DNA of 40,287 nt from an uncultured Bacteroidaceae bacterium (GTDB taxonomy: Bacteria; Bacteroidota; Bacteroidia; Bacteroidales; Bacteroidaceae), in the NCBI GenBank assembly GCA_905235525.1, contig CAJOLW010000012.1, positions 1-40,287 on the forward strand, written 5' to 3'. The position numbers and the translations under genes were made by a program. Under the pieces are notes generated by a model. That model saw nothing but the letters and a program-made list of their open reading frames with translations. It was not told where the DNA came from and made no database searches. Below, one piece after another: positions 15,337 through 40,287 of this stretch (its first letter is position 1; the number at the start of each line of letters is the position of its first letter).

Positions 15337-15441
15337 AATTAGGAATTAGGAGTTGGGAATTAGGAATTGGCTATCCAATTAGGGTTCTCATTAGGTGCAC
15401 CCCGCATGGCAACTTCTCATTCCTCATTCCTCATTCCTCAT
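15337..15441. repeat. Two opposed heptamer arrays between nusA and infB
   Basis: The left array (15337-15370) reads AATTAGG twice, AGTTGGG, AATTAGG, then AATTGG, all in 7-base register; one more AATTAGG is at 15377-15383. The right array (15413-15440) reads CTTCTCA then TTCCTCA three times. On the nusA-to-infB transcript these become TGAGGAA units followed by CCTAATT units ending about 12 bases before the infB start. No TAnnTTTG box is present here, so this is a leader or spacer rather than a promoter array. Confidence 0.85.
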
Positions 15442-24738: not shown

Positions 24739-24877
24739 AAGTGACCAAGAAAAATGGAAAATGTTTTTTCAAGTGTGTTTGAAATGTGAAAAATCTTAGT
24801 TTCCATCGCTCGGAGCATAAGTAATTTAGATTTTTCACTTTTCACTCTTCACTTTTCACTAAAAATCCGTACCTTTG
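24739..24877 (+). repeat. Promoter-bearing dispersed element, copy 1
   Basis: Block order: a 35-bp left block (24739-24773) matching copy 2 at 34/35 positions; a partly palindromic TTTCAA...TTGAAA; stem arm GTGAAAAATCT (24786-24796); a variable centre; stem arm AGATTTTTCAC (24828-24838), which is also the start of a four-unit TTTTCAC heptamer array (24832-24859); then CCG and TACCTTTG (24870-24877). It supplies the promoter of the glycosyltransferase gene. Copy 2 is at 35785-35937. Confidence 0.85.
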
Positions 24878-24901
24878 TGCCAACAAATGAATGGATACAC
24901 C

Positions 24902-25963
24902 ATGTTTGGTCAGAAAAAGAATTCCTCCGTCAAGCGGTTGCTCGTCATGCGTTTCAGCGCGATGGGCGATGCTGCCATGACGATGCCTGTACTATATGCT
25001 CTTGCCACCCAGCATCCTGACTTGCGCATCACGATGCTGACACGCACACGTTTTGTGCCCATGTTTGAATGGTTGCCCTCTAATGTGCTGGTGAAAGGCA
25101 TTGATTTTGATGAACAGGATGGCATCGTCGGTTTGACAAAGATGTACAAGAATTTGAAAAAGGGGAACTTCGATGCTGTGGCTGACCTCCACGATGTACT
25201 CCGTTCCAAATACATCCGCACCTGCTTTGCCATGGCGGGTACCAAGGTGGCAAAAGTGGACAAGGGGCGCAAGGAAAAGAAGGCACTGATTGGAAATGGT
25301 CAGACACATGCCGCCCTCCAACCCATGACTGAACGCTATGCAGAGGTGTTTCGTTCCCTGGGGTTCTCCATAGACTTGCCCCAATCAATCAAGATTGATC
25401 TGAAAAAAGAGGACTTTGCCCCGATGAGAAAACTGGTGGGTAAAAAGCAGCCTGATGAGAAGTGGGTGGGTGTGGCACCTTTCGCTGCACACAAACAGAA
25501 GATCTACCCATTGGACAAGATGCAACAAGTGGTGAACGCACTGGCCAAGGAAGGGTGCAAGGTGCTTCTCTTTGGGGCAGGCAAGAAAGAGAGTGACACG
25601 CTGAAAGCATGGGAAGAGAAGCAACAGAATGTTCTGAGTGTCTGCGGCAAGATGGGAGGACTGAAAAACGAAATGTTGCTCATGTCGCAACTTGATCTCA
25701 TGCTTTCCATGGACTCCGCCAACATGCACATCGCCTCTATCTTCGGTGTCCCCGTGCTCTCCATCTGGGGGGCGACCCATCCGAAAGCAGGATTCTCTGG
25801 TTACGGCCAATCTCCTGACACGGAACTGCAACTCGACCTTCCCTGCCGTCCCTGCTCCATCTACGGAAAGAAGCCCTGCAAATTTGGAGACATGAGATGT
25901 ATGAACATCACTCCTGAAACCATCGTCAACAAGGCGATACAAATGATTCAGCAACATGCTTAA
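24902..25963 (+). CDS. Glycosyltransferase family 9 (heptosyltransferase-like)
   Basis: 353 aa from ATG 24902. An ATG at 24887 would be almost leaderless and a TTG at 24875 lies in the promoter box. It is a GT-B fold enzyme of the ADP-heptose:LPS heptosyltransferase group: RLLVMRFSAMGDAAMTMPVL (glycine-rich N-terminal strand), VADLHDVLRSKY, VGVAPFAAHKQKIYPL and MDSANMHIASIFGVPVLSIW (nucleotide-sugar site), then a Cys-rich tail (CRPCSIYGKKPCKF) common in the family. It probably adds a sugar to lipooligosaccharide core. It overlaps the acyltransferase gene by 8 bp, linking sugar and acyl steps of envelope glycolipid synthesis. Confidence 0.92.
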   Translation: MFGQKKNSSVKRLLVMRFSAMGDAAMTMPVLYALATQHPDLRITMLTRTRFVPMFEWLPSNVLVKGIDFDEQDGIVGLTKMYKNLKKGNFDAVADLHDVLRSKYIRTCFAMAGTKVAKVDKGRKEKKALIGNGQTHAALQPMTERYAEVFRSLGFSIDLPQSIKIDLKKEDFAPMRKLVGKKQPDEKWVGVAPFAAHKQKIYPLDKMQQVVNALAKEGCKVLLFGAGKKESDTLKAWEEKQQNVLSVCGKMGGLKNEMLLMSQLDLMLSMDSANMHIASIFGVPVLSIWGATHPKAGFSGYGQSPDTELQLDLPCRPCSIYGKKPCKFGDMRCMNITPETIVNKAIQMIQQHA

Positions 25964-26891
25964 ATACAAACTTCTGAAGGGGTGGCTATGGAGCATCAGC
26001 ATCTGGCCATTTCCCGTATTATATGCCATATCAGACTTCCTCTGTTTCTTCGTGAGCAAGTTCTACCGCACCAAGGTTGTGCGTGAGAACTTGAGAACGG
26101 CTTTTCCCGAGAAAACGGAGAAGGAACTCAAGGAGATTGAGAAGAAATTCTACCACCAACTTTGCGACAATTTTATTGAGGACATCAAGATGCTTTCCAT
26201 GTCGAAAGAGGAAATGATGCGCCGCATGACCTTCAGCGGGCTGGATGAGGCAAAGAAACGGCACGATGCAGGTCAGCCCCTGCATTTCCTTTACCTGAGC
26301 CATTTCGGCAATTGGGAGTGGATTTCATCCATCAACTATTACACCCAACCTTGGTGTACTTCTGGTCAGGTTTACCACCCCTTGCGCAACGATGAAATGG
26401 ACGAACTCTTCTGCCACTTACGCGGTCAATACGGAGGCGTCAACATCAAGATGAAGGAGACTTTCCGCCGCATCCTTCAATTGCGCAAAGAGGGCAAGAA
26501 TTATATCATCGGCTTTATCAGCGACCAGCAGCCCAAGTGGAGCAGCATCCACCACTTCGTGCCCTTCCTCAACCACGACACCGCCGTTTTCATTGGTGCA
26601 GAACACATCGCTCGGAAAGTGGATGCTTTCATGATGTACGGACGCATGAGCCGTCCCAAGCGTGGCTACTATCATCTTGATATCATCCCAATGGAAGATC
26701 ATCCTGCCACCGTCCCGGAAAACACTCTGACAGACCGTTACTTCCAATTATTGGAAGCCGATATCCGTGAGCATCCCGAGATGTGGCTTTGGACCCACAA
26801 ACGAGAGAAGAGTGGAATAGAAGGAGGGAATCTGAAAGTTGAAAAACGAACTAACGCACAGAAGGCCGTTAATAGACCAACTGTGCGTTAG
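25956..26891 (+). CDS. LpxL-type lysophospholipid / lipid A acyltransferase
   Basis: 311 aa, one hydrophobic N-terminal anchor (LWSISIWPFPVLYAISDFLC). The catalytic HX4E motif is HFGNWE (His116, Glu121); QPKWSS and a later MYGRMSRPKRGYYHLDI fit the LpxL/HtrB late acyltransferase family. It probably transfers a secondary acyl chain to lipid A. The last 15 or so residues (KRTNAQKAVNRPTVR) are encoded by the terminator hairpin, whose final TAG is the stop codon, so the tail looks non-conserved and possibly acquired. Confidence 0.9.
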   Translation: MLKYKLLKGWLWSISIWPFPVLYAISDFLCFFVSKFYRTKVVRENLRTAFPEKTEKELKEIEKKFYHQLCDNFIEDIKMLSMSKEEMMRRMTFSGLDEAKKRHDAGQPLHFLYLSHFGNWEWISSINYYTQPWCTSGQVYHPLRNDEMDELFCHLRGQYGGVNIKMKETFRRILQLRKEGKNYIIGFISDQQPKWSSIHHFVPFLNHDTAVFIGAEHIARKVDAFMMYGRMSRPKRGYYHLDIIPMEDHPATVPENTLTDRYFQLLEADIREHPEMWLWTHKREKSGIEGGNLKVEKRTNAQKAVNRPTVR

Positions 26892-26897
26892 CATTTT
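26851..26897. terminator. Bidirectional terminator overlapping the acyltransferase stop codon
   Basis: CTAACGCACAG (26851-26861) pairs perfectly with CTGTGCGTTAG (26881-26891) around a 19-base loop. T-rich runs follow on both strands (CATTTTTCC on plus, TTCGTTTTTC on minus). It serves the convergent acyltransferase and rpsO genes, and the last three stem bases are the TAG stop codon. Confidence 0.85.
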
Positions 26898-26916
26898 TCC
26901 AAATTTAGACTTTCTC

Positions 26917-27186
26917 TTACTTACGGAGACCAAGTTTCTTGACGATAGCGCGGTAACGCTCGATGTCTTTCTTCTTGAGGTAAGAGAGGAAACGGCGGCG
27001 CTGACCCACAAGTTTCACAAGAGAACGGTTTGTGACAAAATCCTTGTGATTAGCCTTTACGTGCTCCGTGAGATGCTGGATACGATAAGTGAGAAGTGCA
27101 ATCTGGCTCTCGCAAGAACCAGTGTCGGTGGCAGAAGCACCATACTCGGCGAAAATCTCTGCCTTCTTTGCTGAATCTAAATACAT
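26917..27186 (-). CDS. rpsO: 30S ribosomal protein S15
   Basis: 89 aa, normal length. The family core is clear: TGSCESQIALLTYRIQHLTEHV, KDFVTNRSLVKLVGQRRRFLSYL and RYRAIVKKLGLRK. It binds the central domain of 16S rRNA early in 30S assembly. It is a single-gene unit with its own promoter and an 80-nt leader (about 27187-27267) that contains GC-rich complementary segments (AGCC/GGCT and GGCGCGC), possibly for S15 autoregulation; that is inference. Confidence 0.97.
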   Translation of the reverse strand: MYLDSAKKAEIFAEYGASATDTGSCESQIALLTYRIQHLTEHVKANHKDFVTNRSLVKLVGQRRRFLSYLKKKDIERYRAIVKKLGLRK

Positions 27187-27273
27187 AATTTTGTTGTGAT
27201 ATAATTAATAATGTGTTATACAGCGCGCCAAGATTCTTTCAGCCGAATGCGTGGCTCGCCTGTAAATCGGGTG

Positions 27274-27319
27274 CAAAGGTAAGGAAAAGTTAGGAATTGG
27301 GAATTAGGAATTAGGAATT
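27274..27319 (-). promoter_or_regulatory. Heptamer-array promoter of rpsO
   Basis: On the minus strand TACCTTTG (27281-27274) is preceded by a four-unit array, seen on plus as AGTTAGG, AATTGGG, AATTAGG, AATTAGG (27288-27315) plus AATT. The join CTAACTTTTCCTTACCTTTG nearly duplicates the one ahead of the VTC gene. Confidence 0.7.
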
Positions 27320-27330
27320 TTTTTACTGTT

Positions 27331-27357
27331 CAAGCATTTTTTACACGAAGATGCTTG
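27331..27357. other. 7-bp hairpin between opposed heptamer arrays
   Basis: CAAGCAT (27331-27337) pairs with ATGCTTG (27351-27357); TTTTTG follows on the plus strand. On the minus strand, where the DUF4421 gene ends, no T-run follows, so it is a weak terminator candidate there. Confidence 0.45.
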
Positions 27358-27387
27358 TTTTTGCCATTCCATGAGAGCACATCCACT

Positions 27388-27422
27388 CTTAACTCCCAAT
27401 TTCTAACTCCTAATTCCTCATA
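27388..27422. repeat. Heptamer array at the 3' end of the DUF4421 gene
   Basis: CTTAACT, CCCAATT, TCTAACT, CCTAATT, CCTCATA in 7-base register, the last unit overlapping the DUF4421 stop codon. It is the opposite orientation of the rpsO promoter array about 70 bp away, so the pair could fold back on each other. Confidence 0.75.
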
Positions 27423-28449
27423 GTCTCATGCCCACAAAAGCACGGGCACGCCATCTCCATTGCTCCGTATATTCGTTGTAGTCGCCAAAAATAGTAGAGT
27501 TCATCACAAAGGTAGAGCCAAAGAACCACTTCTTGTTCATGTTGTAAATGATGGCAGCGCGAGTGTTGAACATCATCTCGGGGAAGTGATAGGATGCCGT
27601 GTTCTTCTCACCATTAACCTTCAGACTGTTGTTGTTGAAGATGATGATGTTAGGTTGTATGGATAGGTGGAAGAGCCACTTCTTGGCCACAAGGTTATAG
27701 CCATAGCCTCCACCGACCGCAAAATTGCCCACATAAAGTCGGGCACCGTCCAGTTCGTCAGGAGCCTCATCGGTTGCCTTGATGCTACCTCCCTGATAGG
27801 CGAAACTCACCAGCCATGAGCCAGCCGATCGCTTTTGGATGTAGGATTGCATGAGAGCGGCTGGATAGGAGAAACGCCGATAGTTGAATGCATAGTAGCC
27901 CGTCAGATAGAATGATGCGAGGCGCAGAGAGCCTTTCTCGAGATGGGTATCGCCCATGCTACCCGACAAGGTCTTGGATAGTTGATAATATGCCTCCACA
28001 CCGAATCGGTTGTAGTAGGCATTCAGGTTCAGTTCGATATCCTTGTTCTTGCCACTCAGATGTGCAGGATTGATGGCCGCTCCAACCGCCAGCCCCATAT
28101 AGTTCACGCCCATACTGAAGGTGACACGTGCGTCAGTGTTTAGATTGGATCGGAATTTTTCTCCGTCCTTCTCATATCTGGCATGGATGGAGTTGTGCGA
28201 CAGGTTTCCTCTCAATTTCAACGTCAACTTGGCTTGGGGACGCGCCAAATAGAGCGTGTCGTATGTCACCTGCTCATACCTCGTGCGCAGGAGACTGTCA
28301 ACTCGTTCACGTACTATCTCGCGACGGGTTTGGGCAAAAGCCATGCTCGCTACAATCAGCATCAGCAAGAAAATAGCAGGTCTTCGTCCTCTATCTTCCA
28401 CAACTGGAATGCGGATGTATTCTTTTATACTCTTATATCTACTAAACAT
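27418..28449 (-). CDS. DUF4421-like outer-membrane beta-barrel protein
   Basis: 343 aa. Basic lead of about 24 residues, then a signal peptide (AIFLLMLIVASMAFAQ). The mature part has regular amphipathic strands (TLKLRGNLSHNSIHARYE, VTFSMGVNYMGLAVGAAINP, ELNLNAYYNRFGVEAYYQ) and FAVGGGYGYNLVAKKW, ending in ARAFVGMRL. This fits DUF4421, a Bacteroidetes outer-membrane family of unknown function. It starts 16 bp after the glgP stop and is probably read from the glgP promoter; a functional link to glycogen is not evident. Confidence 0.78.
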   Translation of the reverse strand: MFSRYKSIKEYIRIPVVEDRGRRPAIFLLMLIVASMAFAQTRREIVRERVDSLLRTRYEQVTYDTLYLARPQAKLTLKLRGNLSHNSIHARYEKDGEKFRSNLNTDARVTFSMGVNYMGLAVGAAINPAHLSGKNKDIELNLNAYYNRFGVEAYYQLSKTLSGSMGDTHLEKGSLRLASFYLTGYYAFNYRRFSYPAALMQSYIQKRSAGSWLVSFAYQGGSIKATDEAPDELDGARLYVGNFAVGGGYGYNLVAKKWLFHLSIQPNIIIFNNNSLKVNGEKNTASYHFPEMMFNTRAAIIYNMNKKWFFGSTFVMNSTIFGDYNEYTEQWRWRARAFVGMRL

Positions 28450-28465
28450 GCAAAAGATGAAATGC

Positions 28466-31042
28466 CTAATTGTTGAATGGGGGGAGTTCTAACCATTTGA
28501 TATAACAGAAGTCCTGACGGTGAGGGAGGTTGGGGTGCTTGGGATACATGCGCACGGCACTCTTGTACTGTCCGAACTGCTGGGGGGTGAGGGTGGCTTG
28601 GAAGGTGTAGTTATTGCCTTCGTGACCAGTCATAGTGAGTGGCTCCACAGAGAACACTCTCTCTTCACCGTCTTTGCCCACGAGAATATTGACTTTCTCC
28701 AATCCAATGGCATCGTTAAGTCCCTGCTCATCGATGACATAGCGGACTTGGTAGTGTCCTCCCGCTTCGCCTCCAGTAGCGGGGAAATCCCATTCTGCAC
28801 TTACCACCCGAATGGCATCCCAGCGTTGTGCCACGGTCTCTTTCCATTGGGCGAGTGTCTTCGCCAAACGATAGTTGTCTTTGGCAATTTCTTTGTATCG
28901 GCGAGTTTCCTTCTCGTAGAATTTCGAGTAGTAGTCATCGAGTTGGCGCTTCATCGTGTAGTGGGGTGCTATCTGAGCGATGGAGTTCTTGATGACCTGT
29001 ATCCAGCCGCGTGAGATGCCGATTTCGTCCTTGTCGTAGTATAGGGGGACGATTTCATTCTCCAAGAGTGAGTAGATGGTGGCGGCGTCAAGTTTGTCTT
29101 GAAGTTCTTGGTTCTGGTAGGTGCGGTGCTCGGTGAGTGCCCATCCTGCGCCTTCACGATAACCCTCAAGCCACCAGCCGTCTTTCACACTGAGGTTGAC
29201 AACTCCGTTCATCTCGGCTTTCTCTCCTGATGTGCCAGAGGCTTCGAGCGGACGGGTGGGGGTGTTCATCCAAATGTCCACTCCACTCACGAGATTGCGT
29301 GCAAGCATATAATCATAATCCTCGACAAAGATGACTTTACCCTGGAACTCTTCACGCTGGGAGATTTCGTATATCATCTTGATGAGTCCCTGTCCTGCAC
29401 CGTCGGCTGGATGTGCTTTGCCAGCAAAGAGGAAAACGACGGGCCGCTCGGGGTTGTTGACGATGCGTGCCAGTCGCTCAAGGTCGGTGAATAGCAGGTG
29501 AGCGCGCTTGTAGGTGGCAAAGCGTCGGCAGAAGCCAATGACGAGGGAATTGGGATTTAGGCGTTCTGCCAGTTTGGTGAGACGCGAAGGATCGCCCTGA
29601 TTTTTCAGCCAGGTGTTTCGGAACTGTATCTCCACGTATTCGAAGAGCTTTTTCTTCAGTTCCATTCGGGTTGCCCAAATTTCTTCGTCGGGGCAGTTGT
29701 AGATGCCGTGCCAGATGGTTTCGTTCGATTGGTCGTGGAGGAAATTCTTGTCAAAGTATTTGTCGTATATCTTGCGCCATTCAGTAGCAGCCCACGTGGG
29801 GAAGTGCACACCATTGGTAACATAGCCTACATGGTTCTCTTCTGGATAGTAGCCTGCCCAGATGTTGGCAAACATCTTTTGGGATACTTTACCGTGAAGC
29901 ATGGACACACCATTGACCTCCTGACAGGTGTTACAGGCGAAGGTACTCATGCAGAACTTCTCGCCGTGGTCGTCGGGATTGGTGCGTCCCATACCGATGA
30001 ACTCGTCCCACGAGATGCCGAGCCTTTTGGGATAGCCGCCCATGTATTTGCCGAAAAGTCCCTCTTCGAAGTAGTCGTGACCCGCTGGCACGGGGGTGTG
30101 GACGGTGTAGAGGGAGGAAGCGCGCACGAGTTCCATGGCTTCGTTGAAAGTGAGACCCTCGTCAATGTAGTCGCAGAGTCGCTGCAAGTTGCACAGAGCG
30201 GCATGACCTTCGTTGCAGTGGTAGATGTCTTTCTTGATGCCCATCCGCTTGAGCAGCAGCATGCCGCCAATGCCGAGCAGGATTTCCTGCTTCAAGCGAT
30301 TTTCCCAGTCTCCGCCATAGAGGGAGTGGGTGATGGGCTTGTCATATTCGGAGTTCTGATCGTTGTCAGTGTCGAGCAGGTAGAGTTTCACGCGTCCCAC
30401 ATTGACGCGCCAGACACTGGCATACACATGATAGTTGTTGTAGGGAACATCTATCACGAGTGGATTACCCTCTTCGTCCAGTTGCCGCTCAATGGGCAGG
30501 CTACCGAAGTTCTGCGCCTCATAGTTGGCAATCTGCTGCCCGTCCATGGAAAGGCTCTGGGTGAAGTAGCCAAAGCGGTAGAGGAATCCGATGGCACACA
30601 TATCAACGTTGGAGTCGGAGGCCTCCTTCACATAGTCACCAGCCAGCATGCCGAGGCCACCGCTATAGATTTTCAGGGCAGAGTGAATGCCATACTCCAT
30701 GCAGAAGTATGCTACGGAAGGTCGGCTGGTGTCGGGCTGCACGTCTATATATTTGCGGAACTTTCCATACACATCCTTCACTCGCTTCATCAGCGTTTCG
30801 TCTTTCAGTATCTCTTCCTTACGAGTGTAGGTGAGTTGCTCTAAAAGCATCACGGGATTGTGCTTCACGTCGTGATAGAGGTCAGCATCGAGGTCACGGA
30901 ACAGGTCGCGGGCTTCGTAGTTCCACACCCACCACATGTTGTGGGCGATCTCATCCAGACATTTCAGTTCTTCTGGCAATGTAGCCTTCACGGTCAGCAC
31001 TTTCCATTGAGGTGCATTCGCATAATCTGCTTTGATTTTCAT
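28466..31042 (-). CDS. glgP: Alpha-glucan (glycogen) phosphorylase
   Basis: 858 aa from the ATG at 31042; an in-frame ATG at 31072 adds ten Lys/Asn-rich residues, and the inner start fits homologues I recall (MKIK followed by an NxPxWK-type segment). It releases glucose-1-phosphate from glycogen with PLP. Family features: [68 protein letters not shown], and the PLP-lysine region [14 protein letters not shown] around residue 605. This is the short non-regulated bacterial type (TIGR02094-like). Confidence 0.95.
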
Positions 31043-31108
31043 GACTTTTTCATATTTTTTTAAGTTTAACATTCATCGAAAGAATCACCTTCATTCGCAA
31101 TTCAAATG

Positions 31109-31116
31109 CAAATATA
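31109..31116 (-). promoter_or_regulatory. -7 box for glgP
   Basis: Reads TATATTTG on the minus strand. A start near 31100 gives a leader of about 58 nt. Between it and the typA promoter (31117-31300) the sequence is AT-rich with no further recognisable element apart from one TTCCACATTCCTAATTCCC stretch. Confidence 0.55.
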
Positions 31117-31310
31117 TGAAAAATGGTGTAATTGCACACAATATTTACATGTTTTTTTTGAAATATTCCAGACAGTCCGTCAAATAAGTCATATTCATTA
31201 TGACAGATGATTCTACATTCCACATTCCTAATTCCCTGTTATTTTCATAAAATTCTCATGTTCGGTAAAGAAAACTATTTTTCTCTTCTCTCTCATACTT
31301 GAATTTTTCG

Positions 31311-31318
31311 TACCTTTG
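31311..31318 (+). promoter_or_regulatory. -7 box for typA
   Basis: TACCTTTG, 28 bp before the typA ATG at 31347. The upstream 31275-31305 is C/T-rich (TTTTTCTCTTCTCTCTCATAC), reminiscent of the pyrimidine-rich arrays at other promoters here but without a clean 7-base period. Confidence 0.65.
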
Positions 31319-31346
31319 CACCTTGAAAGTTAAACCATCAATAAGT

Positions 31347-33152
31347 ATGCAGGATATTAGAAACATTGCGATTATTGCACACGTGGACCACGGAAAGACA
31401 ACGTTGGTCGATAAGATGTTGCTCGCCGGAAATCTCTTTCGCGAGAACCAGCAGACTGGTGACTTGATTTTGGATAACAACGAATTGGAACGGGAGCGTG
31501 GAATCACCATTCTTTCAAAGAACGTTTCCATTAATTATAAGGGTACAAAGATTAATGTCATTGACACCCCTGGACACTCCGACTTCGGCGGCGAGGTGGA
31601 ACGTGTGCTGAATATGGCAGACGGCTGCATCCTTTTGGTTGATGCATTCGAAGGCCCTATGCCCCAGACGCGTTTCGTGTTGCAGAAGGCGTTGGAAATA
31701 GGTCTGAAGCCTGTGGTGGTGGTGAACAAGGTGGACAAGCCAAACTGCCGACCTGAGGAGGTGTATGAAATGGTGTTCGATCTGATGTTCTCGCTGAATG
31801 CTACGGAAGACCAACTGGATTTCCCTGTGGTATATGGCTCTGCCAAGCAAGGCTGGATGGGGGCTGACTACAAGACACCAACCAATGACATCACTTACTT
31901 GCTGGATGTGATTCTCGACACTATTCCTGCACCTAAACAGTTGGATGGCACACCCCAGATGCTGATTACATCGTTGGACTACTCCACTTACACGGGCCGC
32001 ATTGCTGTGGGGCGTGTGCATCGTGGCACACTGAAAGCAGGACAGAACATCACGATTGTGCACCGCAATGGCAGCACGGAGAAAACGAAAATCAAGGAAT
32101 TGCATACGTTTGAAGGCATGGGGCACCGTGCTGCCGATTCTGTCAGTTCAGGCGACATCTGCGCTGTTATCGGTTTGTCGAACTTCGAGATTGGTGACAC
32201 CATTTGCGACTTTGAGGAACCAGAGGCACTGCCTACCATCTCCATCGATGAACCGACCATGTCGATGCTTTTCACCATCAATAACTCCCCCTTCTTCGGT
32301 AAGGAGGGAAAATTCTGCACCAGCCGCCACATCGGTGACCGTCTCTATAAAGAACTGGAGAAGAATTTGGCATTACGTGTGGAAATGAAAGAAGGTACTA
32401 CCGACCAGTGGATTGTCAGCGGGCGTGGTGTGTTGCATCTCTCCGTTCTCATCGAAACCATGCGTCGAGAGGGGTATGAGTTGCAAGTGGGTCAACCACA
32501 GGTGATTTTCAAAGAGATCAATGGTGTGAAGTGTGAACCGATTGAGGAATTGACCATCAATGTGCCTGAGGAATCTGCCAGCAAGATGATTGATATGGTG
32601 ACACGTCGTAAGGGAGAGATGGTGAGCATGGAAGCACAAGGTAACCGTGTGAACATTGAATTTGAGATACCTTCGCGTGGCATCATTGGATTGCGTACCA
32701 ATGTGCTGACTGCCAGTCAGGGTGAAGCCATCATGGCACACCGCTTTAAAAGTTACCAACCTTTCAAGGGTGAATTGACGCGCCGTACGAATGGCTCGCT
32801 CATCGCCATGGAATCAGGCACTGCTTATGCCTATGCCATTGACCACCTGCAAGACCGTGGTAAGTTCTTCATCAATCCTCAAGACACCGTATATGCAGGC
32901 CAGGTGGTGGGCGAACATGTCCATGAGATAGACCTTGTCATCAATGTGACCAAGGCAAAACAATTAACTAATGTACGCGCGAGCGGCACCGACGAGAAGG
33001 CGCACATCATACCGCCAGTAGTGCTCTCGTTGGAGGAGGCGTTGGAATATATCAAGGCTGACGAGTATGTGGAGGTGACTCCGAAAAGCATGCGAATCAG
33101 AAAAATCATTCTTGACCATTTGGAGAGAAAACGTGCCAATAGGGAAGAGTAG
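31347..33152 (+). CDS. typA: Ribosome-associated GTPase TypA/BipA
   Basis: 601 aa from ATG 31347; the upstream in-frame codons overlap the promoter. It is a translational GTPase of the EF-G-like family acting in 50S assembly and stress adaptation. G1 is AHVDHGKT (11-18), G3 DTPGHSDFGGEVERV, G4 NKVDKPN and G5 GSAKQGW. The later domains include SGRGVLHLSVLIETMRREG and the BipA C-terminal NVTKAKQLTNVRASGTDEK. The length is normal. Confidence 0.97.
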   Translation: MQDIRNIAIIAHVDHGKTTLVDKMLLAGNLFRENQQTGDLILDNNELERERGITILSKNVSINYKGTKINVIDTPGHSDFGGEVERVLNMADGCILLVDAFEGPMPQTRFVLQKALEIGLKPVVVVNKVDKPNCRPEEVYEMVFDLMFSLNATEDQLDFPVVYGSAKQGWMGADYKTPTNDITYLLDVILDTIPAPKQLDGTPQMLITSLDYSTYTGRIAVGRVHRGTLKAGQNITIVHRNGSTEKTKIKELHTFEGMGHRAADSVSSGDICAVIGLSNFEIGDTICDFEEPEALPTISIDEPTMSMLFTINNSPFFGKEGKFCTSRHIGDRLYKELEKNLALRVEMKEGTTDQWIVSGRGVLHLSVLIETMRREGYELQVGQPQVIFKEINGVKCEPIEELTINVPEESASKMIDMVTRRKGEMVSMEAQGNRVNIEFEIPSRGIIGLRTNVLTASQGEAIMAHRFKSYQPFKGELTRRTNGSLIAMESGTAYAYAIDHLQDRGKFFINPQDTVYAGQVVGEHVHEIDLVINVTKAKQLTNVRASGTDEKAHIIPPVVLSLEEALEYIKADEYVEVTPKSMRIRKIILDHLERKRANREE

Positions 33153-33191
33153 GGACAAGACTCCCGATTGTAAAGCCGAGAGATAAAAAAA

Positions 33192-33230
33192 GGTGTGTTT
33201 TTGTGTGATTTGTGCACAAAAACATCCTTT
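33192..33230 (+). terminator. Terminator after typA
   Basis: TGTTTTTGTG (33196-33205) pairs with CACAAAAACA (33215-33224), 9-base loop, followed by TCCTTTTCG. The outer GG/CC can extend the stem past a small bulge. Confidence 0.65.
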
Positions 33231-33263
33231 TCGTGCAATAAAAGTGCTTTTTGTAGGAATATT

Positions 33264-33296
33264 TTTGCAGAAATCAAAGAATTATTCCTACCTTTG
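33264..33296 (+). promoter_or_regulatory. Promoter of acpP-fabF-rnc
   Basis: TTTG (33264-33267), 21 bases, TACCTTTG (33289-33296): the best plus-strand match to the Bacteroidetes consensus in the window. The start near 33303 leaves an A-rich leader of about 60 nt, consistent with a highly expressed gene. Confidence 0.8.
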
Positions 33297-33361
33297 CACC
33301 GCAAAACGTATAAAAGAGAGAAATAGAAAATAATCAATTAACATTTTAAACATTTAAGATT

Positions 33362-33598
33362 ATGTCTGAAATTGAATCAAGAGTAAAATCAATCATCGTT
33401 GAGAAACTCAACGTTGACGAAGCAGAAGTAAAGCCAGAAGCAAGTTTCACTAACGACCTCGGTGCTGACTCATTGGACACTGTAGAACTCATCATGGAGT
33501 TTGAGAAGGCTTTCGGTATCAATATTCCTGACGATCAGGCTGAAAAGATCGCTACTGTTGGCGACGCTATTGCTTACATCGAGCAGAACGCTAAGTAA
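33362..33598 (+). CDS. acpP: Acyl carrier protein
   Basis: 78 aa acidic carrier of fatty-acid intermediates. The phosphopantetheine attachment Ser is Ser37 in [10 protein letters not shown]. The length and overall sequence ([38 protein letters not shown]) are standard. Two bases separate it from fabF. Confidence 0.98.
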
Positions 33599-33600
33599 TT

Positions 33601-34863
33601 ATGGAATTAAAGAGAGTTGTTGTAACAGGTCTTGGCGCATTGACTCCCCTTGGCAATACTGCTGAGGAGTCTTGGGAAAATCTCAAGGCAGGTAAGAGCG
33701 GTGCTGGTCCTATTACACATTTCGACGCTTCACAGTTCAAGACTCAGTTTGCTTGCGAAGTGAAGGGATTCAATTCTGCTGACTTCATCGACCGTAAGGA
33801 AGCCCGCAAGATGGATCTCTACACGCAGTATGCTCTTGCCGCAGCCAAGATGGCTATCGAGGATTCTGGTATGGATCTCGAAACGATTGACAAGAACGAA
33901 ATCGGAGTTGTGCTCGGTGTAGGTATCGGAGGTATTAAAACTTTCGAGGAAGAGGCTGGCAATTATGCCATCAACGGTCCTCAACTCGGCCCTAAGTTCA
34001 ATCCCTTCTTCATCCCGAAGATGATTGCAGATATCGCTTCAGGTCATATCTCCATTCAGTACGGATTCCGTGGACCCAACTACACAACAACTTCCGCATG
34101 TGCATCTTCTTCAAACGCAGTCGCTGACGCATTCAACCTCATTCGCCTTGGCAAGGCCAACGCAATGGTTACAGGTGGTGCTGAGGCTGCCATTTTTGCA
34201 TCGGGCGTAGGTGGTTTCAATGCCATGAAGGCACTCTCCACTCGCAATGACGAGCCAGAGAAGGCAAGCCGCCCGTTCAGTGCAAGCCGTGACGGTTTCG
34301 TCATGGGTGAAGGTGCGGGCATTCTGATTCTTGAGGAACTGGAGCATGCAAAGGCTCGTGGTGCCAAGATTTATGCTGAGATGATTGGCGCAGGCATGTC
34401 TGCCGACGCTTACCACATCACAGCAACCCACCCAGAGGGTCTCGGTGCAAAACTCGTGATGGAGCGCGCGCTCAAGGACGCTGGAATCAAGCCTGAAGAC
34501 GTTGACTATATCAATGTTCACGGCACTTCCACTCATGTGGGTGACATTTCCGAGGTTAAGGCCATCAAGGAAGTGTTTGGCGATGCAGCCTACAAACTTA
34601 ACATCAGTTCAACGAAGTCCATGACAGGTCACCTCCTCGGTGCTGCTGGTGCTGTTGAAGCGATGATAAGCATCCTTGCTGTTAAGAACGACATTGTACC
34701 TCCAACCATCAACCATGCTGATGACGACCAAGATCCTGAGATTGATTACAACCTCAATTTCACCTTCAACAAGGCTCAGCAGCGTACCGTTCGTGTGGCA
34801 CTCAGCAACACCTTCGGATTCGGCGGTCACAATGCAAGTGTGATATTCAAAAAGTATCAGTAA
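33601..34863 (+). CDS. fabF: 3-oxoacyl-ACP synthase II
   Basis: 420 aa condensing enzyme that extends acyl-ACP with malonyl-ACP. The catalytic triad is visible: Cys167 (TSACASSSNA), His307 (HGTSTHVGD) and His344 (SMTGHLLGAAG). It ends with the GFGGHNASVIFKKY signature. The length is typical, and acpP-fabF is the conserved order. Confidence 0.98.
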   Translation: MELKRVVVTGLGALTPLGNTAEESWENLKAGKSGAGPITHFDASQFKTQFACEVKGFNSADFIDRKEARKMDLYTQYALAAAKMAIEDSGMDLETIDKNEIGVVLGVGIGGIKTFEEEAGNYAINGPQLGPKFNPFFIPKMIADIASGHISIQYGFRGPNYTTTSACASSSNAVADAFNLIRLGKANAMVTGGAEAAIFASGVGGFNAMKALSTRNDEPEKASRPFSASRDGFVMGEGAGILILEELEHAKARGAKIYAEMIGAGMSADAYHITATHPEGLGAKLVMERALKDAGIKPEDVDYINVHGTSTHVGDISEVKAIKEVFGDAAYKLNISSTKSMTGHLLGAAGAVEAMISILAVKNDIVPPTINHADDDQDPEIDYNLNFTFNKAQQRTVRVALSNTFGFGGHNASVIFKKYQ

Positions 34864-34865
34864 TC

Positions 34866-34890
34866 TTGGACTTAGTCCAACGACTTTTCT
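34866..34890 (+). other. Small hairpin between fabF and rnc
   Basis: TTGGAC (34866-34871) pairs with GTCCAA (34875-34880) and CGACTTTTCT follows. It could be a weak terminator or processing site that lowers rnc expression relative to acpP-fabF. Confidence 0.4.
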
Positions 34891-34899
34891 AAAGTTCCA

Positions 34900-35790
34900 G
34901 TGATTTCGGATATCATAGATCAAATAAGGCTTCTTTTCGTTTCCGAGAAGAAGCCTTTTTTACGACTCAAATCCATCCTTGGGTTCTATCCACGAAACAT
35001 CAGGCTTTATCATTTAGCCCTGATGCACAAATCTGTGGCATACCATGAGAGGGATATGATGGAAAAAACGGTGCATAGACGTCGGCGAATCAAGCAGACT
35101 TCGCAGAATGTGGAGGCTAAGACTTCGGCGGGGGCTCCCAATGCCGCACTTCATGCTCCATATGTCAACAATGAACGTCTCGAATTTCTGGGCGATGCCA
35201 TGTTGGGCGCCATTGTGGCAGACATCCTCTACAAGCACTATGGCAACAAACAGGAAGGCTTTCTCACCACCCTCCGTAGCAATATTGTCTGCCGTAGTTC
35301 ATTGAATCAACTTTCGCAAGACTTGGGCTTGGACAAACTCATTCGTCATGCAGGTGCGGTCACCACAGGTCATAACAGTTTCATGAGCGGTAATGCTTTC
35401 GAAGCATTCGTTGGTGCCATCTACCTCGACCGTGGCTACAAGTACTGCTATCGTTTTTTGGAGGACGTGGTCTTCAAGAAACACATCAACATTGATGAGA
35501 TGGCCAAACAAGAGAAGAACTTCAAGAGTTCCTTGATAGAGTGGTGCCAAAAATATCAGTATCACTTTAAGTTTATACAAAAAGAATCACGAGACGGCAC
35601 AGAACACAATGCTCCCATTTTCCATTCCAGTGTTTATATAGAGGGGATTTCCTGTGGCACGGGGAATGGCTACAGCAAGAAAGAGAGCGATCAAAATGCT
35701 GCCAAACAAGCACTCAAACGTATCAAACGTGACAAGGAACTGCTGAACGGCATCAAGAGGAGCAAGGAGAAAGACGAAAATGAGAAGTGA
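34900..35790 (+). CDS. rnc: Ribonuclease III
   Basis: 296 aa from a GTG start; MISDIIDQIRLLF and the following ILGFYPRNIRLYHLALMHKS agree with Bacteroidetes RNase III. The catalytic signature is NERLEFLGDA (91-100). The C-terminal dsRNA-binding domain is about 207-278 (GNGYSKKESDQNAAKQALKR). Between HKS and the signature lies an insertion of about 40 residues, basic then Ala-rich (HRRRRIKQTSQ), longer than in the usual bacterial enzyme. It processes rRNA and double-stranded RNA. The stop codon lies inside the left block of repeat element copy 2. Confidence 0.93.
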   Translation: MISDIIDQIRLLFVSEKKPFLRLKSILGFYPRNIRLYHLALMHKSVAYHERDMMEKTVHRRRRIKQTSQNVEAKTSAGAPNAALHAPYVNNERLEFLGDAMLGAIVADILYKHYGNKQEGFLTTLRSNIVCRSSLNQLSQDLGLDKLIRHAGAVTTGHNSFMSGNAFEAFVGAIYLDRGYKYCYRFLEDVVFKKHINIDEMAKQEKNFKSSLIEWCQKYQYHFKFIQKESRDGTEHNAPIFHSSVYIEGISCGTGNGYSKKESDQNAAKQALKRIKRDKELLNGIKRSKEKDENEK

Positions 35791-35937
35791 CCAAGAAAAG
35801 TGGAAAATGTTTTTTCAAGCATGCTTGAAAAGTGAAAAATTTGCTTTCGCATAGGTATATAAATTGTATACAAACAGTTGCGGTAGCAAATTTTTCACTT
35901 TTCACTCTTCGCTTTTCACTTTATTTCCGTACCTTTG
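35785..35937 (+). repeat. Promoter-bearing dispersed element, copy 2
   Basis: Same block order as copy 1: 35-bp left block (35785-35819), a perfect 20-bp palindrome TTTTCAAGCATGCTTGAAAA, stem arm AGTGAAAAATTTGCT (35831-35845), variable centre, stem arm AGCAAATTTTTCACT (35885-35899), heptamers TTTTCAC, TTTTCAC, TCTTCGC, TTTTCAC (35892-35919), then CCG and TACCTTTG (35930-35937). The left block supplies the rnc stop codon and the right end the promoter of the GH3-like gene. Confidence 0.85.
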
Positions 35938-35956: not shown

Positions 35957-37495
35957 ATGAATACAACAGGCTTTCTAAATAAGATTTATTTCTCCATAAG
36001 ACAGAAACAATTGGAAAAATATGCGACTCATGCGAAAGAGTTGCAACTCAAGATTTTTCGCCATCTGATTCGTCAGGGAAAGAAGACGGAGTGGGGTGAA
36101 CAACATCAATACGATCAGATTGACTCCTATGAGCGGTTCTGCCAACAGGTGGATGTGAACACCTACGAGGAATTGAAGGGGTATATTCACAAGATGCGTC
36201 AGGGCGAGGCGAATATCCTTTGGCCTGGTGTAGTACGTTGGTATGCCAAATCATCAGGTACCACCAACGACAAAAGTAAGTTCATTCCTGTGAGTGGTGA
36301 AGGACTGAAAAATATTCATTATCGGGGTGGCACAGACTGTGTGGTCAGTTATTTGCATATCAATCCGCGGAGCAAGCTTTTCTCAGGTAAGAGTCTGATT
36401 CTCGGTGGTAGTCATGTGCCCAACCTCAATACACCTAATAGTCTGGTGGGTGACCTCAGCGCCATCCTCATTGAAAATATCCCTTCAGCAGCGAAGGTCG
36501 TCCGTGTACCCAAGAAGAAAATCGCCCTTCTGAGCGATTTTGAGGAAAAGCGTGACAAAATTGCTCGTGCGGCAATGGATATGAACATCACCAACATCAG
36601 CGGTGTCCCTTCCTGGATGCTCAGTGTCTTGAACCGTGTGTTGGAACTCAAGGGTGTTGACCGTCTTGACGAGGTGTGGCCCAATCTCGAAGTGTTCTTC
36701 CATGGAGGAGTGGCGTTCACACCTTATCGCGAACAATATAAGAGCATTATTGGATTGCCCAACATGCATTATATGGAAACCTACAATGCCAGTGAAGGTT
36801 TCTTTGGCTTGCAGAATGACCTCTCCGACCCCAATATGCTCTTGATGATAGATTATGGTGTCTTTTATGAGTTCTGCCCGATGGACAATCTTGGCAATGA
36901 CGGCTATCCTGTTGACAAGAGTAAGATTGTACCCCTTTGGGAAGTGGAGCCAGGCATCAATTATGCCATGATCATCAGCACCAGTTGTGGACTATGGCGC
37001 TACCTCATTGGTGACACAGTCCAGTTCTCACAGAAAGACCCCTACAAGTTCCGCATCACAGGTCGTACCAAGCACTTCATCAACGCCTTTGGCGAGGAAC
37101 TGATTGTGGACAATGCAGAGAAAGGACTTCTGCAAGCCTGTGTTGCCACAGGTGCGCAAGTGAAAGACTTCACTGCAGCCCCCATCTTCATGGACAGCAA
37201 TGCCAAGTGCCGTCATCAATGGATCATCGATTTTGCGAAAGCACCAGCCTCGGTTGATGAGTTTGCAGTCATCCTCGACCGTTCGCTTCAAGCCATCAAC
37301 TCCGACTATGAAGCCAAGCGCCATAAGGACATCACCCTTCAGCCGCTCGAAATCATCGTTGCCAAACCTGGACTCTTCGATGAATGGCTCAAGAGCAAAG
37401 GCAAACTGGGCGGTCAGCACAAGATTCCTCGTCTTAGCAACTCTCGTCAGTATATAGAGGAACTTCTTGCCATGAATTCCTCCATGAATTCCTGA
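35957..37495 (+). CDS. GH3-like acyl-adenylating enzyme
   Basis: 512 aa from ATG 35957; longer versions start upstream of the promoter box. It resembles plant GH3 (auxin-responsive promoter) proteins, ANL-superfamily enzymes that adenylate a carboxylate and join it to an amino acid or other nucleophile. Motifs: YAKSSGTTNDKSKFIPVS (P-loop-like), HYMETYNASEGFFG (adenine-binding) and YRTG-equivalent FRITGRTKHFINAFGEELIV. Bacteroidetes carry one such gene with no established substrate. It could act on fatty or aminoacyl lipids; that is inference. Confidence 0.88.
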   Translation: MNTTGFLNKIYFSIRQKQLEKYATHAKELQLKIFRHLIRQGKKTEWGEQHQYDQIDSYERFCQQVDVNTYEELKGYIHKMRQGEANILWPGVVRWYAKSSGTTNDKSKFIPVSGEGLKNIHYRGGTDCVVSYLHINPRSKLFSGKSLILGGSHVPNLNTPNSLVGDLSAILIENIPSAAKVVRVPKKKIALLSDFEEKRDKIARAAMDMNITNISGVPSWMLSVLNRVLELKGVDRLDEVWPNLEVFFHGGVAFTPYREQYKSIIGLPNMHYMETYNASEGFFGLQNDLSDPNMLLMIDYGVFYEFCPMDNLGNDGYPVDKSKIVPLWEVEPGINYAMIISTSCGLWRYLIGDTVQFSQKDPYKFRITGRTKHFINAFGEELIVDNAEKGLLQACVATGAQVKDFTAAPIFMDSNAKCRHQWIIDFAKAPASVDEFAVILDRSLQAINSDYEAKRHKDITLQPLEIIVAKPGLFDEWLKSKGKLGGQHKIPRLSNSRQYIEELLAMNSSMNS

Positions 37496-39953: not shown

Positions 39954-39966
39954 GAAGTGTTTTTCC

Positions 39967-40092
39967 ACAACGGATTGCACGGATTATACGGATTTTTGAG
40001 CCTCGGCGGCTCCTGCCAATTCGGATTGTTCTGCATCCGGCCATCGTCGCCTCTTGCGACGAAAAATCCGTATAATCCGTGCAATCCGTTGT
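39967..40092. repeat. 31-bp perfect inverted repeat with nested hairpins
   Basis: Arms 39967-39997 and 40062-40092 are exact reverse complements. The left arm contains three 9-base units CGGATTGCA, CGGATTATA, CGGATTTTT. The 64-base interior begins with hairpin GAGCC/GGCTC (39998-40012) and ends with CGTCGC/GCGACG (40045-40061), each abutting the main stem, so a branched fold is possible. No flanking target duplication is visible. Confidence 0.9.
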
Positions 40093-40287
40093 AAAAATAT
40101 ATCCGAAATTTGAGTCCAATAATTGGTTCCAATAATAATTATTGGATAAAATTATCGTCAATTCTTCACTCATTTCTTTCTTTTCATAGGTGTTCAGGCG
40201 AGTAAACTCGTAGTCTTGGAAATTATTGTCCGAGAAAACAAGCCGCTTGCGGCGAAAAGAAGAGACATCATTGTATAAGATAATTTT
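40093..40287. other. Gene-free right edge with small palindromes
   Basis: No supported coding region. Short palindromes include CCAATAATTGG and CCAATAATAATTATTGG near 40117-40145, CGAGTAAACTCG near 40200 and CCGCTTGCGG near 40245. Reading frames over the inverted repeats encode repetitive TDCTDYTDF-type peptides and are judged spurious. Confidence 0.6.

Follow-up and report, generated by a model that had tools for sequence, protein, structure and literature searches.

Heptamer-armed hairpins between protein genes of a Bacteroidaceae genome: probable gene-less relatives of S23p-encoding intervening sequences

What kind of repeat is it that stands twice between the genes of an uncultured Bacteroidaceae bacterium, with similar outer parts, different centres and stem arms that differ in step? 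The two copies lie at 24739-24877 and 35785-35937 of a 40,287-nucleotide (nt) stretch of contig CAJOLW010000012.1 (assembly GCA_905235525.1; the whole stretch is here called the window, and its genome G000), where an earlier note had placed them and had suggested that they might be a mobile or recombining promoter cassette with a stem under selection. The reading that we favour, at a probability of about 0.7, is that both belong, as gene-less and presumably non-autonomous copies, to a selfish hairpin family that resembles the intervening sequences (IVSs) of 23S rRNA and lives outside rRNA. Much hangs on a protein gene, key to the family, that did not enter the account given in that note.

The copies have in common a 35-base pair (bp) block with 34 of its 35 positions identical (91% over 56 nt), heptamer arrays TTTTCACTTTTCACTCTTC(A/G)CTTTTCACT, a TTTTCAC array and ends CCGTACCTTTG, and their centres differ, all as had been described. 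Terminal inverted repeats able to form a long stem are present in both. Copy 1 (24739-24868; all window features are given on the + strand) is a gene-less hairpin element of the AAATCTAAGTTACC subfamily. The 35-bp block forms its outer left arm and GTGAAAAATCT (24786-24796) its inner left arm, and its right arm (24828-24860) consists of AGATTTTTCAC (24828-24838) and a TTTCACT heptamer array. Copy 2 (35785-35928), likewise gene-less and with the 35-bp block, is of the AAATTTGCTACCGC subfamily, its inner left arm being AGTGAAAAATTTGCT (35831-35845) and its right arm (35885-35920) AGCAAATTTTTCACT (35885-35899) plus a heptamer array. On folding, none of 200 shuffles was as stable as 24779-24860 of copy 1 (z −4.4) or 35827-35921 of copy 2 (z −7.8); the longer stretch 24739-24877 folds less well (z −2.8, with 2 of 200 shuffles equally stable). 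Both copies lie between protein genes and not inside an rRNA gene, the gap between their inner arms (48-95 nt) is too small for an S23p/PF05635 gene, and Rfam gave no matches to the window at gathering cut-offs.

Are there others? Many more were found once the full genome (2.77 Mb) was searched. Copy 1 has 67 matches there (each arm counts as one, and scoring covered 40 of the 96 first-look candidates), and a fuzzy rule applied to 45 fetched loci of this genome gives 34 two-armed gene-less hairpins, three of them doubtful (L026, L043 and L044); at least about 31 are dispersed in it. Their consensus, by eye, is (AGTGAAA)n AAATCTAAGTTACC, a loop that often contains GCCATNCGG, and then GGTAACTTAGATTT (TTTCACT)n. 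The loop varies while the arms stay constant, as in loci of the metagenome-assembled genome (MAG) RGIG3754, repeatedly with a different loop among the matches listed. The 35-bp block, matched at seven places in G000 with the window copies included, is a separable module able to replace a heptamer arm. Among related genomes, 34 of the 36 congeneric ones searched have matches, and across genomes there are at least 108 contig stretches with AAAGTGAAAAATCTNNGTTAC; among the matches listed, 78 of 80 come from Bacteroidaceae, Prevotellaceae or Bacteroidales MAGs, many of them ruminant-gut by name. Two stretches of the same scan, L111 and L115, are labelled as Pelagibacter and Alphaproteobacteria MAGs and are perhaps chance matches or mis-binned. 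Now and then the repeat is found within coding sequence: a half element (one arm and its heptamer array; L020 1460-1560, contig C31 of G000) lies in frame within a 533-amino acid open reading frame (ORF), to which it contributes LDFSLFTLHFS-like residues, and a 35-bp block (L026 1481-1600, contig C6) occurs close to the beginning of a 240-amino acid ORF, in its reading frame and in an apparent lipoprotein signal peptide.

The family has longer members, of about 430-475 bp and with a gene, and these are known in relatives for both window subfamilies. At three loci (L102, probably the G010 copy; L103; and L121, probably the G022 copy) the arms (AGTGAAA)nAAATCTAAGTTAC stand some 470 bp apart, and in L102 and L103 they enclose ORFs of 127 and 129 amino acids that match PF05635 (E 5e-21 and 2e-20) and TIGR02436 (1e-26 and 3e-25). 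With scores of 75.3 bits for PF05635 (cut-off 33.8) and 93.1 for TIGR02436 (cut-off 24), their products are identified through Pfam and NCBIfam as predicted 23S-rRNA intervening-sequence proteins (S23p). The copy 2 arm, AAATTTGCTACCGC, flanks PF05635 genes in G004, G006 and G012 (L206, L207 and L234). In the fetched loci, overlapping ones being counted more than once, inner arms have their partner at 140 nt or less in 147 instances and at 301-700 nt in 19, and are without a partner in 54. Sixteen of the 19 wider pairs are PF05635-bearing elements, nine of which are distinct; L284, L404 and L291, which make up the remainder, are at the copy 2 site and span the start of the GH3 gene there. The list of distances above 140 nt has 27 entries, inspected case by case apart from L126, L169 and the pairs of about 741-996 nt at L001/L254 and L102/L310; no gene family but PF05635 was found within these arms in the fetched loci. 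Where it can be measured, selection on the protein is purifying, the ratio of nonsynonymous to synonymous divergence being 0.04-0.27 in non-saturated pairs. The L102 protein matches PDB entry 2RLD (4e-23), and among PDB entries a profile built from 19 PF05635 proteins had convincing matches to 2RLD and 2GSC only. PF05635 may be kin to Avd, a protein of diversity-generating retroelements.

Enclosure of the S23p gene by inverted arms is widely distributed. In 41 genomes of the genus and order of the window there are 85 PF05635 genes over the cut-off, of which 70 were tested (five ORFs of about 220 amino acids and ten others were left out), and 54 of the 70 have inverted flanking arms that outscore all of 100 mononucleotide shuffles. 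Own-flank scores have a median of 43, with 55 of 70 above the cross-locus 95th percentile (28) and 32 above the 99th (46). The left arm has its best repeat period at 7 nt in 41 of the 54, and at 6, 8, 9, 10 or 12 in the rest, and the units vary among elements (TTAGGAA, AATTAAC, CAGTTGA, AATGATA, GTTTAGA, GGGTTGC and others). As a control, none of 31 other genes of the window has such arms. A sample from the phylum has them at 14 of 24 PF05635 genes (27 loci fetched from a longer list, three of them too short), and on plasmids of Cyanobacteriota, Spirochaetota, Bacteroidota, Bacillota and Chloroflexota they are present at all 16 copies fetched, out of 25 records, with flanks taken from the protein match on one side and from 40 nt before the gene end on the other; 15 of these 16 have a clear 7-nt periodicity, near-perfect heptamer arms occurring in several Nostocales. 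One plasmid element lies between hsdS and hsdR in Monoglobus (L442) and another beside cas1 in Pseudanabaena (L445), placements consistent with insertion into defence operons. A similar design is seen with a different protein: of 30 GxxExxY (PF13366) genes tested from 70 listed places, 20 have inverted arms, in some cases narrowly, and the best period is 9 nt in 12 of the 20.

Occupancy of orthologous sites is polymorphic. Of 22 genomes compared at the copy 1 site, two have the element, G000 and G002. At the copy 2 site (19 genomes) there are full hairpins in G000 and G006, a diverged one in G011 and short remnants in G016 and G008, and the close relative G002, whose GH3 protein is 97% identical, has none. 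The junction of pta and ackA varies too: of 23 genomes, G010, G020 and G022 have PF05635 elements there and G002, G013 and G016 GxxExxY elements, nothing is recognisable in G003, G018, G023 and G024, and most others have short tandem arrays or other repeats. RUG204 (probably G025) has a PF05635 element there too, and differs from its near relative G016 in the element it carries. Another, different insertion, containing GATGCGGGGTGC, is seen at the pta-ackA junction of G009, G008 and G006 (L311, L315 and L321). Between G010 and RUG204 the element is 98-100% identical in 100-nt bins (96% at the left edge), as against 81-92% for bins of the adjacent pta and ackA genes, the two outermost pta bins excepted (75% with gaps, and 97%), and this disparity shows a recent transfer of the element between the two species at the same site; synonymous divergence of its PF05635 gene is 0.012. 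The GxxExxY elements of G002 and G013 (99-100% identical, with flanks mostly at 91-98%) give a weaker signal of the same kind.

How might such an element spread? Gene-less copies would do so with help in trans, S23p being the candidate helper and the gene-less copies its free riders. Transfer may be homing-like, directed at permissive gene junctions, and effected by short-tract recombination or by site-directed copying. We prefer this since no target-site duplication, no Y1 transposase in G000, no consistent reverse transcriptase and, in the fetched loci, no transposase-bearing relative came to light. RVT_1 occurs once in G000 and has no match in the element-bearing G002, G004 and G010, so that a reverse transcriptase in the same genome is not required in those three, and obligate insertion at the RNA level is unlikely because elements sit both in operon-like junctions and in divergent promoter spacers. 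The two arms could match since one has been copied from the other, by fold-back or template switching, or since a hairpin is needed, or both; and by analogy with the IVSs of rRNA, insertions in transcribed junctions might be tolerated since RNase III trims the hairpin. More tentatively, and with the odds a little against it, one can envisage a transposase-free mobile class spanning phyla, in which heptamer-armed hairpins go with S23p, or arms that are often of about 9-nt units with a GxxExxY PDDEXK_3 protein, entry into gene junctions is homing-like and gene-less copies are shed, with rRNA IVSs as those members that landed in rRNA and the short heptamer arrays of Cyanobacteria and Bacteroidetes as arms or scars.

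Several observations weigh against our reading. No PF05635 gene within window-type arms was seen in G000, whose two tested PF05635 genes (L202 and L214) carry other heptamers, a third ORF, of 225 amino acids, having been outside the test; help in trans is accordingly conjectural. Clear arms are lacking around 16 of the 70 PF05635 genes of the order, 10 of the 24 of the phylum and both copies on phage scaffolds. The 70 genes are not independent, same-site orthologues being included, and mononucleotide shuffles favour low-complexity arrays, a weakness of which the cross-locus and window controls are free. Arm type follows protein relatedness weakly across sites (Spearman 0.27 with non-independent pairs, from 48 elements with arm scores of at least 31 among 57 entered, 15 same-site pairs being among the 48), and the link comes mostly from very close proteins: at different sites, arms are common to four of eight pairs with a protein similarity above 0.7 and to few below it. 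Nor is there a target-site duplication (own mean 2.87 versus cross 3.03 in 31 elements with approximate boundaries, which cannot be fixed to the base). Between G010 and G022 the element is no more identical than its flanks, and the pta-ackA transfer could be ordinary homologous recombination that carried the element along.

Should one then think of more familiar kinds of repeat? The window copies are short, ORF-free and AT-rich, with inverted ends and many intergenic relatives, as would suit ordinary miniature inverted-repeat transposable elements (MITEs) mobilised by a DDE transposase from a full-length copy elsewhere; the missing target-site duplication and the enclosure of PF05635 by 16 of the 19 arm pairs at 301-700 nt make this rather unlikely. 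No transposase-bearing element with AGTGAAAAATCTAAGTTAC ends was recognised in the fetched loci, a search that was not genome-wide, and of the wider pairs inspected L141 has ordinary genes and no transposase and L399 nothing transposase-like. Being dispersed, short, palindromic and intergenic, they might instead be REPIN-like and spread by a RAYT (Y1) transposase, an explanation with next to no probability and largely refuted for G000, which at 99.8% completeness has no Y1_Tnp match; Y1_Tnp is over the cut-off in 6 of 21 genomes, the element-rich G013 has none, G016 has none over the cut-off, and G002 has one weak match (29.9 bits in a 328-amino acid frame). That the repeats grew where they stand, slippage giving heptamer arrays and template switching giving arms with no transposition at all, is unlikely. 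It would accommodate solo arrays, arms that sometimes mirror into flanking promoters, and different short arrays at one junction in different species (pta-ackA, and a site at 15.3 kb of the window); against it are arms and a core that recur at dozens of sites unrelated to one another and in more than one species, a specific protein family inside the arms across phyla, and a near-identical element in two divergent species.

The promoter question deserves fuller treatment. Closeness of the elements to promoters is real. Of 62 element sides, 20 have a TAnnTTTG box no more than 30 nt away, compared with 13 of 1767 random windows, which are mostly coding (the three doubtful hairpins are excluded from this count, as from that of target-site duplications), seven of the eight exact TTTCCGTACCTTTG strings in the genome adjoin heptamer arrays, and at C55:5182-5312 and, by eye, at L014 and L017 the mirror image formed by the arms takes in both −7 boxes. 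It is not, however, what defines the family. A −7 box TACCTTTG at 24870-24877 serves the gene downstream of copy 1, which encodes a glycosyltransferase of family 9 (PF01075; 24902-25963) and is separated by the copy 1 spacer from a divergent gene; at 35930-35937 the same box stands next to copy 2, for the gene of a GH3 family protein (35957-37495), with an RNase III gene (Ribonuclease_3 and dsrm; 34900-35790) upstream of the element. Relatives without the element have a box of this type at both sites (at the first, G005, G011, G012 and G016); that each copy is the only visible promoter of its downstream gene is not demonstrated, and from this comparison we judge the box by copy 1 to be ancestral and outside the element. 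Of the 34 hairpins in G000, 16 are between tandem genes, nine between divergent and six between convergent ones, two are at an edge and one is inside an ORF, and by eye the PF05635 elements of pta-ackA lack such a box at their ends. A mobile or recombining promoter cassette is accordingly quite improbable, and as a defining feature it is rejected on the strength of the boxes in element-free relatives and of the mixed gene contexts.

And the stem? The arms of copies 1 and 2 do differ in step, as the earlier note had it, though not as one drifting stem: they belong to two recurring subfamilies, AAATCTAAGTTACC and AAATTTGCTACCGC, each of which is also found around a protein gene. Arms match within elements beyond chance (mean alignment of own pairs 52.4 in the 34 hairpins, as against 46.9, standard deviation 1.2, for permuted ones, with none of 20,000 permutations reaching the observed value), and an arm has its own partner as best or tied match in just 5 of the 34. 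At C55:5182-5312 of G000 (L453 and L454) an AACTAAA-armed hairpin has mirror symmetry through both divergent TTTCCGTACCTTTG −7 boxes, as L014 and L017 do by eye, and because the mirror image extends through flanking boxes, it would seem likelier that one arm was copied from its partner than that selection acted alone. When the two arms of such a repeat change together, a selected RNA is not a necessary conclusion. Regulatory or terminator hairpins kept by the host could have stems as long and stable, and matching arms, and are nevertheless very improbable given erratic presence at orthologous sites, mixed contexts, and nine spacers between divergent genes, where the end of a transcript is not expected.

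There are other hairpins in the window. A related kind of gene-less heptamer element, of TTAGGAA type, occupies 15338-15441, at a site where G002 has a spacer of about 31 nt with a different short array, compared with about 122 nt in the window (between flanking alignments), and a gene-less hairpin of TTAGGAA type, whose core motif is GCCATTCC, lies at 27290-27421. TTAGGAA units recur in PF05635 elements of G002 and G021 (L221 and L222). The gene-less hairpin at 39962-40097 (z −10.8), a 36-nt inverted repeat with 94% complementarity, has units of about 9 nt (ACGGATTNN) like those in the arms of the GxxExxY-encoding L365, and is a gene-less cousin of hairpins that encode GxxExxY proteins.

Suggestions that the rRNA IVSs are mobile, or remnants of transposition, go back to the 1990s, and in the available text of PMC4990558 the function and origin of IVSs are still called unclear. 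A dispersed, multi-copy, site-polymorphic form outside rRNA makes that mobility testable, and with it the role of S23p, the identity of what moves the hairpin and the reason for 7-nt arm units. In cas loci, 18 PF05635 genes have been counted as an associated function (in the portion of PMC3936711 available), and such genes in unrelated operons, cas loci for example, could be insertions rather than functional partners. For annotators there is a warning: a 'four helix bundle protein' or GxxExxY gene within an operon may be cargo of a hairpin element.

Which known systems come close? REPIN/RAYT elements are likewise dispersed short palindromes, but the present arms are heptamer arrays, the long versions enclose a four-helix-bundle gene, and G000 has no RAYT. 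BrickBuilt, a MITE of Porphyromonas gingivalis with 19 copies in one strain, is also an intergenic repeat of the Bacteroidales in which tandem units go with inverted ends, and has promoter activity; unlike the present elements it has a core 23-nt direct repeat and small inverted ends, and no link to PF05635 is seen in the available text (PMC4596501). Closer to the arrays are the TAACTGA heptamers of Beggiatoaceae, Cyanobacteria and Bacteroidetes, short tandem repeats sporadic in the same phyla, many of them just before start codons. Their description (PMC4679880) is of directly repeated units that may have a regulatory role; it reports one inverted repeat, and neither S23 nor 'four helix' occurs in the main text. 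GxxExxY is mentioned once, beside a reverse transcriptase and without hairpins, in the available text of PMC8934634. Among the papers listed none links dispersed heptamer hairpins to S23p outside rRNA, subscription papers being mostly outside the coverage.

It is the IVSs of 23S rRNA that the family most recalls. These have a stem and sometimes an S23p ORF, and that of Coxiella burnetii has variable GACAGAT heptamers before the ORF, with an RNase III site at the first repeat, as far as PMC4990558 was available; in rRNA of the Candidate Phyla Radiation, ORF-bearing and ORF-less inserts occur at common sites with PF05635 scattered among them (PMC11270868, in part). The present elements are unlike them in their place, which is between protein genes and outside rRNA, in their number, with many copies to a genome and gene-less ones dominant, and in arm units that differ from element to element, and excision from rRNA does not apply. 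They are like them in having an inverted-repeat stem around an S23p (PF05635) ORF, within some 430-470 bp, and, as in Coxiella, heptameric direct repeats. If the likeness reflects kinship, a puzzling class of rRNA inserts would at last have a mobile family.

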